Source: Ochotona curzoniae (taxonomy: Eukaryota > Chordata > Mammalia > Lagomorpha > Ochotonidae). Taken from it: a stretch of DNA of 64,000 bases. The translations under genes and the position numbers were made by a program. Positions 4,073-54,377 of this stretch are shown here, piece after piece (the stretch's first letter is position 1; each line of letters begins with the position of its first letter). The stretch spans positions 4,960,001-5,024,000 of the forward strand of contig NW_024466459.1 of the NCBI RefSeq assembly GCF_017591425.1. The letters are read 5' to 3'. The notes under the pieces were generated by a model, which worked only from the letters and a program-made list of their open reading frames with translations, was not told the origin of the DNA and did not search any database.

Positions 4073-4584
4073 GACTTCATGGTTTTCTTGGCTCCTGGCC
4101 TTTTTTTTTTTTTTTTAATAACACTTTTACTGATTTCTATTTGATTTACTCTCTCTTGTAATTCACTCCCATAAACTATGGCTCTAAAATTACCTTTATA
4201 AATCACATCTAGCATGCCTTTTAAGTCATTGATCTTTCTTAATGAAGAGAAGCAAGTAAAATGGTAATACGGTAGTAATTGTCGCTCTTTCAAATTTATT
4301 CAACACACTTATTACACATCAAGTATACAAAATACCGAGCAAGAGACTCATGTAAAAGCTTATATTTCTATTAACGTTTAGGTATGGATTAAGGGTTAAA
4401 TGTATTAAGAAAGACAGTCTCATTGGGTGTCTTCTTAACTCTGTGTTAAGAAGGAATGAGCAGCTGTCTTCAGTTGTAAATGGAAGTCACTCTAGGTAGT
4501 AGAGCTTTACCTCGAGTCTTTGTTCTGATGTACAATACGTCAAAATTACTTCTATTGTCATTTTTATTTCATCATTTTCTCTGT
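4073..4584. other. Unique AT-rich sequence
   Basis: Contains a T-run of about 16 near 4,101-4,116 and otherwise nothing I recognise. Confidence 0.5.
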
Positions 4585-14335: not shown

Positions 14336-16604
14336 AAATATGAAAACAAACATAACTCAATCCCACGCCCAAATCTCCAACAAATACTGAGTGGGGAGAG
14401 GGAAGAACAGCAAAGCAGATGGGAAAATGGAGGAGAAGGACCATTATTTTCCCAGAAGGCACAGAAAAGCATTGTTTTTTTTCTTCCAGTCCTAAAGTAG
14501 TGTTTTAACTCACGGTCATTCTGTTCTTGTCAATGTGAAGAAATGATTACCTAAGAGAAGACAGCATGCTCTGTGCTCAAGTTGATTAACTGAGTCTCAT
14601 TGCCATTTCCAACAAAGGGTTTCAGCTGTATTAGATCAGTAGCCTTTGATTTTTAAAATCAGGTATAAATCCAATTGTGCTTTTTTTTTTCCCCATGGAT
14701 TCTGGGAATTCATTAGTTTTGTCCTGAATTTTGTAGGAGCAAGGAACACAATTTGGACCCAACTTCTCACTCAATGCAAGCGTGGTCACGGGCTCACTTT
14801 CCAGAGGTTAGCTTGTGATATGACTAAAGGCCTCACTCTGCTGCGTGCAGCCACCGAGCAAATGAACACACACTCCTGAATTTCTGCAAAGTGTGAGCAG
14901 AGTATGTGGCTAGAGCTGCAGCTGGCTTTTTAATCTGGGTGTTCTCTCAATGGGCACTGTGTTTGAGCACATCACACAGGCTTATGGGTCATATCAGAGA
15001 ATGCAAATGTACTTTTGGCTTGCAGGGGTAGATAAACAGGCAGGGGCAGCTATATCATCAGTGTTTGAAAAATAGAAACGCGATGCCCCCTTGCTCAAAA
15101 TCCATTAAGAATTTCAAGCTGACAAGAACAGATCTCTAAACTTGCCCAGGCAGCACTTACCGAAAGCTGCACCCGGTCATGAAAAGCAAAGCGGGCAGTT
15201 GGGAAGGGACAGGTTAACTCTTCATGGTGCTATTACAGTGGAGAAAAAGAAGACTGAGAGCTGAGAGTCTGACTCAGTTGGGTTCAGAATTGTAGCAGGC
15301 GTGCAAAATCCCTTCTAGCCGCAGATGCTCAAGGGCTGGAAAGGCTTCACCTTGCTGATGTTACTTCAACAATTGAGTGTCACTGTCCCCTGATCCGGGT
15401 GGATTGGAAAGAAATGGAGCTCCCCAAAGAGAACCAGCCTAAAGGCAAGAGAAAATGGTTATTCTCCTGCTTCCAGACTTCCTAACCAGTCCCCCCTCCA
15501 ACCCCCCAAAAAAACCTGCTCACAGCCCAACAACTAAAGACCCAGAGCAGATTTTTTCATAGTCTGTGAGCTGATCTTGAACTTTCCGGAGGCTTGTACT
15601 TCACAGAAAAAAAAAAATCTAGGCACTTTCTCCATGTTCCTGCATCTGGAAAGGGAGGCCTCTCTTTTCAAGTGTTGAGTGACATCTTAGAGCTTATTTC
15701 TTTCCAGTAAAAGTGGAAAATATCAACCAAGGTTTCAAAGGAAAGGAAATGTAATGTATTTTCTCATCAATTTTGGCATTATCTATCTAGCAGGCAGCCC
15801 TTTAATCTTCAGCGCAGTATTTTTCCATTGTATAATTCCGAGTTTGCCTTAAATCTGTTTTGCTCTTTCAACTTCTCTTTTCTAAAACACGAATGGGGTT
15901 TGCACAACTTATCTCCCTTTCTCATTTGCTTCCTTAATATTTTTGATTATCACTTGCCAGGGCTTCTCCAGAGAAATTCACAAGTTTGCTTCTGCAAATA
16001 GTGATTTTGTGAAAACTCTTGTTAGCTTTTTACAGTCACTTCTGTCCAGGACTCAGACTATAATGAAAGAATACCCGCTCTTGCCACCATTCTTCCCTCC
16101 AACAACCTGAAACCAGAGACATAGAATTCATCTGTAGGAATTAAACTTGAAGCCAATGCATTATTACATAGATCAAAAGAGAGAGATGTGAAGACAAGCC
16201 AGGAAGGAAACATTGAACTTTAGCCTGATGAAACGGGTTAGAAAAGCATATGTCAGTCAGATGGGTGAACAACGCAAACAGAATATTGGCGAGAAGAATG
16301 TTGGCAGGGGCCTGTCCAAGGCTTTCTAAGGGAACCTTAAGTAGTTGCCCTTTAGGCACTTCTGGCCTGTCAGCAAGGCCACCTAGTTGTTCAGAAGGCT
16401 ATATTATGTCTCCTTAGATTTGTCTAACGAGACAGATTGCATCTTTTCTGTCTTTGTTAGTCTTCTGTATTTAGCACCCATCCAGATGAATATTGAGACA
16501 CCAGTTAACAACTCAGATTCTGGGGCTGTTTGTAAGTTAGTAAGTCAAAATTCTGCTCCTTTCCAGGTAGCTTCATGAAGACAGTCAATTTTGAGAGGAA
16601 AACT
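14336..16604. other. Unique sequence
   Basis: About 2.3 kb without a recognised repeat or gene. It includes moderately GC-rich stretches (15,060-15,560) and a C/A run near 15,491-15,516. Confidence 0.55.
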
Positions 16605-16819
16605 GAGCCAGCGTCACAGGCTTAGCCTGGGGAAGGATGGGTGCACTGAGCCAGGGTCACAGGCTTAGCCTGGAGAAGGATGGGTGCCCTGAGCCAGGGT
16701 CACAGGCTTAGCCTGGGGAAGGATGGGTGCCCCGAGCCAGGGTCACAGGCTTAGCCTGGGGAAGGATGGGTGCCCTGAGCCAGGGTCACAGGCTTAGCTT
16801 GGGGAAGGATGGGTGCACA
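16605..16819. repeat. 43-bp minisatellite, five units
   Basis: Five head-to-tail copies start at 16,605, 16,648, 16,691, 16,734 and 16,777. Each starts GAGCCAGGGTCACAGGCTTA and ends in GGAAGGATGGGTGC plus three variable bases. Units differ by only one to three bases, so amplification or homogenisation is recent. The array ends about 40 bp before a CSINE. Confidence 0.97.
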
Positions 16820-32975: not shown

Positions 32976-33057
32976 GTCTACGGTCATACCACCCTGAACA
33001 CGCCCGATCTCTGAAGCTAAGCAGGGTCGGGCCTGGTTAGTACTGGGATGGGAGACT
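32976..33057 (+). pseudogene. 5S rRNA pseudogene, truncated, internal deletion
   Basis: Begins GTCTACGGTCATACCACCCT, the 5' end of mammalian 5S rRNA, and stays near-identical through GCAGGGTCGGGCCTGGTTAG and GGGATGGGAGAC. Ten bases are missing after GCCCGATCTC, where the gene normally has GTCTGATCTC; one copy of a GATCTC direct repeat and the bases between were lost. The 3' third after GGGAGAC (about base 91 of 121) is absent, including the terminal stem and the T-run terminator. The internal box A and most of box C are present. A functional gene is excluded by the deletion and truncation. Confidence 0.95.
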
Positions 33058-33864
33058 ACAGTCCTCTAAAGGAGGAACCAGTACAATGAATGGCGTGAAC
33101 TTGATCATTTGAGTTTCTGAAACTTCGTTTTTCACCTGTATAAATAAGAACTCTATTGAGACGGTTTAGGTAGATAACTGCTTCAAATTTTAGCAATTTA
33201 GTAAAAGGCAAAAGATTTATACAATCTGAAGAGAAACCAGAGTATAAATTTTAGCAATTTAGAACAACATATTATTTTTTTTTTCTTATGATTTTATGGA
33301 AGTTCTGCCTCGTGGATTGTCATTCTTCAGAGTCTGGTAGGATCACCATGTTTTTACTTACAGGGGTGGAAAATATTCTTGGCCTTTTTATGGTGTTATT
33401 TGGGTTTCATGGGAGTACAGGAGTTAGGATCCGTGGGAAATAGTTCATGAATATAAACCTCAGAGTACAAGCATGTATCAAACCTCCACTCCATTATTCT
33501 TGCTAATATGGTGTTGATCAAACAGACCCCATGGCTAACGGCATCCCCAGTGTGACTGGATATTTACCAGGTATGGATCTGAGAGAAACAGTTCACTGGA
33601 CTCTCCTAAATAGCCATCTACAATGCAAGTTTTGTTGTCACATAAAATGACATAGTAGATTGCAAATGGTTTTCAGTGCACATTATTGGCAATAAACATT
33701 TAAAGAGTATTTGTGTTGAATAATGTGTTGAAACTTTTTTGGTCAAAATAACATGGCTATAGTGCATCGTACAGTTTTGTGTTTAAAAAAAACTATTGAA
33801 TTTAATGTGAGTATTACTACTATGTCACGCTTTTTATAACCATGTTTAGGAATTTGCTCAATAG
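33058..33864. other. Unique sequence
   Basis: TTTTAGCAATTTAG occurs twice (33,189 and 33,247). Otherwise nothing recognised. Confidence 0.5.
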
Positions 33865-53164: not shown

Positions 53165-53179
53165 AAAAATATCCTTTTC
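53165..53179. repeat. Left flanking duplication of the retrocopy
   Basis: AAAAATATCCTTTTC immediately before the element resembles the A-rich sequence AAAAATCCTTTTTC right after its poly(A) (to 53,968). Imperfect A-rich duplications are usual for LINE-1 insertions. Confidence 0.6.
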
Positions 53180-53181
53180 CT

Positions 53182-53369
53182 GGGTCTCTCTCTCTCTCCC
53201 CTTTCAAGAGGAACACCACCTCCTGGTTTTCTCTCTGGATGTGCTTTCTCTCTCCCTTCCCTGCTCACCTGGTCCCTTCGCAAATAAATTTTTCTGTCTG
53301 CAACAGATTTCTGGCTTTTTATTTCCATACTATGCTGAGGAAAGAACCCATCAGGCATTTCTGCTAACA
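53182..53369 (+). other. R-U5 of the left end
   Basis: Starts GGGTCTCTCTCTCTCTCCCC, carries AATAAA at 53,283-53,288 and ends R at GTCT (53,299), the point where the right-hand copy runs into poly(A). U5 then runs to about AACA (53,369), leaving a nine-base spacer before the primer site, or to 53,378 if there is no spacer. Confidence 0.75.
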
Positions 53370-53378
53370 TGTTTTCCC

Positions 53379-53396
53379 TGGCGCCCAACGTGGGGC
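53379..53396 (+). other. Primer binding site, tRNA-Lys1,2 type
   Basis: TGGCGCCCAACGTGGGGC is complementary to the 3' end of tRNA-Lys1,2, the primer used by Mason-Pfizer-type betaretroviruses and several ERV-K groups. All 18 bases match the expected site. Confidence 0.92.
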
Positions 53397-53633
53397 GTTA
53401 AAAAAGAGACTTAGATGGGAGCCATGTGACCCGACTCAACCAAGAGAAGACTTCACAAGGGGTCTTCAGACGCCACGTGGCCTTGAACATGCAAACTTGT
53501 ATCACAACCAGACCAACTTCTGCCATGGCAACTTGGATGACCCCACCCTTACCCAAACGATGCCCCGTTTCAGCAGGGAGCACCCAGAAGACACTGTGGC
53601 CCTTTACCCCTACAGAAGTAGGATGTGGGATTT

Positions 53634-53644
53634 CAAGAGGGGGG
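53634..53644 (+). other. Polypurine tract
   Basis: AAGAGGGGGG directly precedes TGTGGTCTGAG, the expected TG start of the right-hand LTR. This is where plus-strand DNA synthesis starts in retroviruses. Confidence 0.8.
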
Positions 53645-53947
53645 TGTGGTCTGAGACCATCCAGGCCTGCTGAAGTCTTGGGAACATCTTCAGGTGGGCG
53701 GCAACAGGATTGCCCACCCATTTCCTAACTGATTAAGAGACCATCAATGGGGAACATCTTACCTGTAGGTTCCCGCCCAAACCTTCCTCAAAGACCCTTC
53801 CTCAAAGACCCTTCCTCAAACCTTTGGTGTCTCTCTTCCTCCCCTTTCAAGATTCTCCCCACCTCCTGGTTTTCTCTCCCGAGGTGCTTTCCCCTCCCTC
53901 TCCCTGCCTTGCTCACCCGGCCCCTTTGCAAATAAACTTTTTTGTCT
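53645..53947 (+). promoter_or_regulatory. U3-R of the right end, with repeats and poly(A) signal
   Basis: U3 is about 180 bp and has no clear TATA box. It holds a diverged direct repeat (GAGACCATC…GGAACATCTT at 53,653-53,690 and 53,737-53,760) and a 14-bp repeat CCTTCCTCAAAGAC at 53,782, 53,796 and, partly, 53,810, just upstream of R. AATAAA at 53,931 lies 12 bases before the poly(A) start. Confidence 0.72.
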
Positions 53948-53968
53948 AAAAAAAAAAAATCCTTTTTC

Positions 53969-54377
53969 TTTAAAAGAATGGATTTGTTTGGGTTTGCAGA
54001 GAACAAAAGTCTCAGATATCACAGCATAACAGGAAAAGCAGACAAGACATTGCAGAATAGCCTGAAAGTAATTAATGATGACTTAAAAAAAAAAAAAAAA
54101 ACTCAACTCAAGTTTTACCCAAGTGGGTGTAGAGATGAAGATAGACTCGTAGGAGTAGGATGATGAATGGTCAGACTTGGGAAGTTCTGGCCCAGGAATA
54201 AAGAGTGAACAGTTTATAGTTTTCTTGGAGCTGGATGGTAGACAAAGAGATGGGGAAAGTAAAGGTTGCTCATGGCTCAATAGAATCATAACATCAAAAC
54301 CTAGTGAATAAAATAGTTTTATAGTAAAAAGTTTCTGCGTCAGGGGTATCAGTGTGGCAGTTTGGGGGTACTGCCTC
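53969..54377. other. Unique sequence
   Basis: Contains an A16 run at 54,086-54,101. Nothing else recognised. Confidence 0.45.

Follow-up and report, generated by a model that had tools for sequence, protein, structure and literature searches.

A pika insertion and its relatives as probable LINE-1 copies of spliced gammaretrovirus-like RNA

Layout of the insertion

The window, a stretch of 64,000 nucleotides of the Ochotona curzoniae genome (contig NW_024466459.1), carries one short retroviral insertion whose features are listed in Table 1. The insertion begins at R with no U3 before it, ends after a second R with a run of twelve A residues, and is flanked by imperfect, A-rich duplications; all three features, claimed in the original prediction, are seen directly in the sequence. 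The A-tract follows AATAAA at a distance of 11 bases. Two alignments link the R copies, one of 82 nt (79% identity) and one of 53 nt (85%). The primer binding site string occurs once in the window, and we take it to be of the tRNA-Lys1,2 type, with 18 of 18 positions matching. Boundaries of R and U5 were set from the starts and ends of other copies and are accurate to a few bases; the 3' LTRs used for the U5 end (L018, L020) terminate in GTAACA, followed by unrelated flank. The 3' exon is shorter than that of other copies.

Table 1 Features of the retroviral insertion (slashes mark splice points)
Feature	Position	Strand	Remarks
5' target-site duplication, A-rich start	53165..53181	+	AAAAATATCCTTTTCCT, 17 bp, imperfect relative to 53953-53969
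5' R, RNA start, no preceding U3	53182..53299	+	same start in relatives
U5, end CTAACA	53300..53369	+	LTR end taken from the 3' LTRs in L018 and L020
Spacer, 9 bases	between U5 and primer site	+	
Primer binding site TGGCGCCCAACGTGGGGC	53379..53396	+	
Leader, end of exon 1, CACAAG as splice donor side	53397..53459	+	CACAAG/GTCTGTATGC in intron-keeping loci
3' exon, GGGTCTTCAG up to polypurine tract	53460..53634	+	TTTCCTGATTAG/GGGTCTTCAG in intron-keeping loci
Polypurine tract AAGAGGGGGG	53635..53644	+	
3' U3, most likely start TGAGACC	53652..53825	+	5' LTR boundaries of genomic proviruses
3' R, AATAAA at 53931-53936, no U5 behind	53826..53947	+	
A12 tail, poly(A)	53948..53959	+	
3' target-site duplication AAAAAAATCCTTTTTCT	53953..53969	+	overlaps A12 tail

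The polypurine tract was recognised correctly at the outset; the U3 start was not. It had been placed at the adjoining TG (53645), which we replace by TGAGACC seven bases on as the most likely start, because genomic 5' LTRs begin there beside unrelated flanks. Among 12 such LTR starts, 10 are exactly TGAGACC and two (L043, L067) carry one change. Within U3, positions 53783-53820 consist of CTTCCTCAAAGACC repeats, where other copies have GGTCAAGGAAGGCTTAAAA.

No further pieces of the element were found elsewhere in the 64-kb window, and no Rfam family matched near it. Two other features of the window are a 5S rRNA match at 32976-33094 on the plus strand (41.9 bits, family cut-off 38), probably a pseudogene, and a tandem array at 16602-16818 of five 43-bp units that are 95% alike.

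The splice junction and the family of spliced copies

The insertion is one member of many. Searching the genome (2.08 Gb, 1389 contigs) with 53182-53959 gave 1739 candidates, of which 40 were scored and 30 loci fetched; the counts below are therefore lower bounds. At least 16 other loci in the same build share 76-81% identity over most of the 778 bases. The order R-U5-primer site-leader joined to 3' exon-U3-R is present in 17 of the 30 fetched loci (L001-L016 and L023), the window copy included. These represent at least 13 independent insertions after L008 was merged with L012, and L010 with L013-L015, because of their common flanks. The latter four loci (on C974 and C1341) show one insertion four times with identical flanks, the two on each contig lying about 22 kb from one another. 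This is a duplication of local extent, and the assembly perhaps contains both haplotypes. Two further insertions (L017, L026) have the same architecture with an additional small exon.

The leader and the 3' exon meet at 53459/53460. In loci that retain U5, primer site, leader and intron, CACAAG is followed by GTCTGTATGC; in loci without the 5' part, TTTCCTGATTAG directly precedes GGGTCTTCAG. Because these intron-keeping relatives carry both a donor GT and an acceptor AG at the ends of the segment missing from the window copy, the join is a splice junction. What had been offered as "possibly spliced" is thus shown at nucleotide level, with the leader joining at the GT and AG sites of the intron-keeping loci, and internal deletion in place of splicing is rejected on the same sites. 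Genome-wide, with 28-base patterns and at most three mismatches, the joined form occurs at 20 sites (14 within loci examined; L004, L008 and L012 carry too many changes to match), the donor CACAAG/GTCTGT at 30 and the acceptor TTTCCTGATTAG/GGGTC at 46 sites in intron-keeping relatives. The same three patterns read backwards gave no site each in this genome. Donor and acceptor are paired on one strand in 13 loci, 1984-5884 bases apart, five of them at 4078-4108.

The small exon of L017 and L026 reveals a second, doubly spliced isoform, which uses GT and AG sites other than those of the single-spliced form. Here the same leader end is joined to ATGGGATYT..., and CTTGGTT is then joined to ACTCCAGG, the final join lying after TCTTCAG within the 3' exon. 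At the position where the small exon starts, which is the gag ATG, 17 fetched intron-keeping loci read TTG[C/T]TCAG followed by ATGGGATCTC, and GGTT/GTATCC lies 43-46 bases further in 12 of them (46 in 11). With AG before and GT after in these loci, the small exon is therefore 46 nt long (45 in L017); in L026 it has received a later insertion.

Two loci show atypical joins. In L021 the leader is joined to an intron point 734 nt before the acceptor, which may possibly represent a third acceptor and isoform; altered bases at the join make splicing and deletion indistinguishable there. L028 starts with TGAGACC, ends with GTAACA and is flanked by a 5-bp duplication (TTAGG) of the kind expected from integrase. 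In L028 with L040, U3 is joined straight to the 3' exon at CTTCAG/GGGTC, with possible GT-AG points. Because L028 is LTR-bounded with a 5-bp duplication, it would be either a provirus that suffered a deletion or the integrated product of a rare transcript whose splice donor lay within U3.

L028 also illustrates a rival account of the window copy, in which a provirus with an internal deletion, or else a solo-LTR recombinant, was made by integrase and later lost its outer U3 and U5. Deleted proviruses do occur in this family, as the LTR-type ends, the short duplication and the U3 joined to the 3' exon of L028 attest. Against this account, in the 19 spliced loci the first R is never preceded by U3 and the last R never followed by U5 (E 1e-3, within the fetched 1.5-kb flanks), the join is the same to the nucleotide in 13 insertions with unrelated flanks, GT and AG stand precisely at the ends of the missing segment in many loci, and the copies carry A-tails and duplications of 13-19 bp. 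We regard it as so improbable as to be close to negligible. The original prediction had staked its reading on the absence of relatives with U3 upstream or U5 downstream. Such relatives exist, among them L018, L020 and L029 with U5 behind R as in a 3' LTR, and they are solely intron-keeping or deleted proviruses, the expected sources; the reading stands for the spliced loci.

Source elements and their class

The source proviruses that the original prediction had proposed to look for were sought with the U5-to-intron piece of locus L032 (40 of 1050 candidates scored, 30 loci fetched), and U3-R-U5 loci were found: 17 of the 30 fetched 5' regions have this order, 10 start at R in unrelated flank and three lack R. 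L064 and L065 probably represent the same place, as do L042 and L051. Judging from their 5' ends, the ten R-start loci appear to be unspliced retrocopies, and full-LTR proviruses and unspliced R-start copies coexist in the genome.

In the source, the gag start lies 1496 bases into the intron (L045). A capsid piece (L033:5328-5816) matches the Pfam family Gag_p30 at 33.7 bits (cut-off 27.4, 3.4e-08), and a second piece (L033:5108-5515) scores 18.3, below its cut-off. The capsid piece also matches PDB chains 6hww, 6hwx and 6gza, which we take to be murine leukaemia virus capsid. Beyond the capsid, pieces match zf-CCHC (1.5e-07) and RVP (1.1e-04) in Pfam. The matrix piece (L045) has no Pfam family and no meaningful PDB match; a large protein search returned one unnamed protein at 96% identity. 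From the protease match to the acceptor there remain about 0.9 kb (L038), and eight open pieces between the two (L033, L038) have no Pfam family. No pol was seen in the loci read. Pieced together from partial loci, the source seems to be about 5.2 kb long, as estimated from the two exons, LTRs of some 0.38 kb and an intron of 4.1 kb. At that length it would hold gag and the start of a protease and leave too little space for a full pol; the intron at C733 is longer (5884).

On the capsid match to Gag_p30, the source is classified as a probable class I (gammaretrovirus-like) element. The original prediction had called it betaretrovirus-like, and only the Lys primer site had pointed there. A site taken to be of Lys1,2 type is indeed present in the window copy and in many relatives, as a class II, betaretroviral source would suggest. 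Yet the capsid matches Gag_p30 above cut-off, and no class II capsid family is listed among the Pfam matches of the source capsid; on this match we reject a betaretroviral source, which we consider very unlikely. Primer-site type is of low taxonomic value according to the passages of a HERV-W survey considered here (PMC5016936).

Copying by LINE-1, age and known counterparts

Target-site duplications were examined in 16 retrocopies (15 spliced and L021), with copy ends set by eye. The flank duplication score averages 12.8 for matched and 6.6 for mismatched flanks, and none of 100,000 random re-pairings reaches the matched sum. In 14 of the 16 the duplication is better than that of any mismatched partner, narrowly so in L008 and L021; L009 and L016 have none above background. 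Duplications are 13-19 bp long (17 in the window copy), A-rich at the start in most of the 16, and perfect in six (13-16 bp, L002-L007). The target is exactly TT/AAAA in three of 16 (L004, L006, L007) and GC/AAAAA in the window copy. Most relatives have A-tails, some of them changed to A-rich repeats (L002, L009, L016, L026). The 5' ends lie at or near GGTGTCTC, which is the R start and stands behind CCTTT in proviruses. L003 and L007 have an extra G at this end, possibly left by the RNA cap.

The family thus displays what LINE-1 retrocopies display: a poly(A) tract after the polyadenylation signal, target duplications within about 7-20 bp in 14 of 16 copies, and removed introns, those of the second isoform included. 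The window copy has neither the U3-R-U5 at both ends nor the 4-6 bp duplication of a provirus made by integrase. Together with the R start, these features strongly support the LINE-1 reading advanced at the outset. Counted against it are the missing duplications of L009 and L016, the imperfect duplication of the window copy and the few exact TT/AAAA targets.

Because of the R-to-R ends, the duplications, the recurrent splice join and the coexisting full proviruses, we propose that LINE-1 repeatedly copied spliced retroviral mRNA. On sequence grounds, 53182-53959 is very probably (about 0.95) a LINE-1 processed copy of a spliced endogenous-retrovirus mRNA from a gammaretrovirus-like source of about 5.2 kb, one product of a process that acted many times. 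The sequences show an RNA that began at R in a full U3-R-U5 LTR, lost the intron between a donor just past the primer binding site and an acceptor some 200 nt upstream of the 3' LTR (4078-4108 nt in five of the 13 loci with both ends paired), and ended in R with a poly(A) tail. The LINE-1 protein would then nick the T-rich target strand, prime on the tail and copy up to the capped RNA end. The same process may have run many times over a long span, also on unspliced and doubly spliced RNA.

R-R divergence is 0.184 (K2P, 117 sites) in the window copy and ranges over 16 copies from 0.009 (L005) to 0.356 (L016); an LTR pair at C1287 differs by 0.024. Mammalian substitution rates are about 2-4.5e-9 per site per year, which would make the window copy some 20-40 million years old and L005 one to two million, figures kept rough by the shortness of R and by differences in the source. 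For the 3' part, a tree of 24 rows was built that omits L023 and duplicate loci and counts L021 and L028 as not spliced. A single spliced copy could alternatively have turned SINE-like and bred the rest, so that splicing and capture happened once. L005 and L007 are indeed close sisters (100/99), and the tree is poorly resolved, with three of 21 inner branches starred as well supported. Against such a scheme, spliced copies are mixed with others: the spliced/other label changes 8 times against a shuffled mean of 7.9, and a single clade appears in 0% of 200 bootstrap trees, with the caveats that the starred branches alone force only two changes and that two rows of the non-spliced class, L021 and L028, are of atypical form. 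Two isoforms exist, and no promoter is evident in the spliced copies because their 5' end lacks U3. We judge this alternative very unlikely, and prefer repeated copying of spliced mRNA by LINE-1.

If this is correct, the copies record how an old retroviral transcript of the germline was spliced, and exon boundaries, transcript start, poly(A) site and ancient germline splice sites become readable from DNA, with no need for an RNA sample. In the passages considered, LINE-1 copies of retroviral RNA with such ends are already established for HERV-W, and one spliced env retrocopy has been published. Searches of an open-access library, judged by title and start of the abstract, turned up no paper on a family of spliced retroviral RNA copied by LINE-1 in lagomorphs; their scope leaves aside journals sold by subscription as well as repeat libraries, so a repeat-library entry for the family may exist. 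We put at about even the chances that LINE-1 mobilised a second retroviral group here, apart from the known human one, at large scale, with spliced and doubly spliced noncoding RNA as regular cargo.

HERV-W is described, in the passages considered, as the only human retroviral group mobilised by LINE-1, and why it stands alone "remains to be clarified" (PMC5537654). Tens of copies, some spliced and some not, make up an independent group that offers a comparison case for this question, and such a comparison could reveal the RNA feature that makes a retroviral transcript a LINE-1 substrate. According to the passages considered, the HERV-W survey counts 135 pseudogenes and 65 proviruses among 213 elements, and the HERV-W/ERV-W pseudogenes of primates resemble the pika family in their class I origin, R-U5...U3-R ends, poly(A), duplications, TT/AAAA-type targets and true proviruses alongside (PMC5537654, PMC5016936). 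They differ in that a GT-AG intron is missing from many copies here, with double splicing in two, spliced copies being undescribed in those passages. The primer site is of Lys type here and mostly Trp or Arg there, and the pika source seems to lack most of pol; the systems are compared by features, not by descent. In the portions of the reports considered, ARTenvV of Hippotraginae is likewise a spliced endogenous-retroviral transcript copied by LINE-1, with a 14-bp duplication; it is one copy of one two-exon env gene with other flanking exons, whereas the pika family repeats an apparently noncoding LTR-to-LTR transcript (PMC9604959). SpIREs (spliced LINE-1 insertions), as far as the passages considered describe them, are likewise spliced retroelement RNA that LINE-1 put back into the genome; in SpIREs LINE-1 copied its own RNA, and here retroviral RNA would have been moved in trans (PMC5860796).
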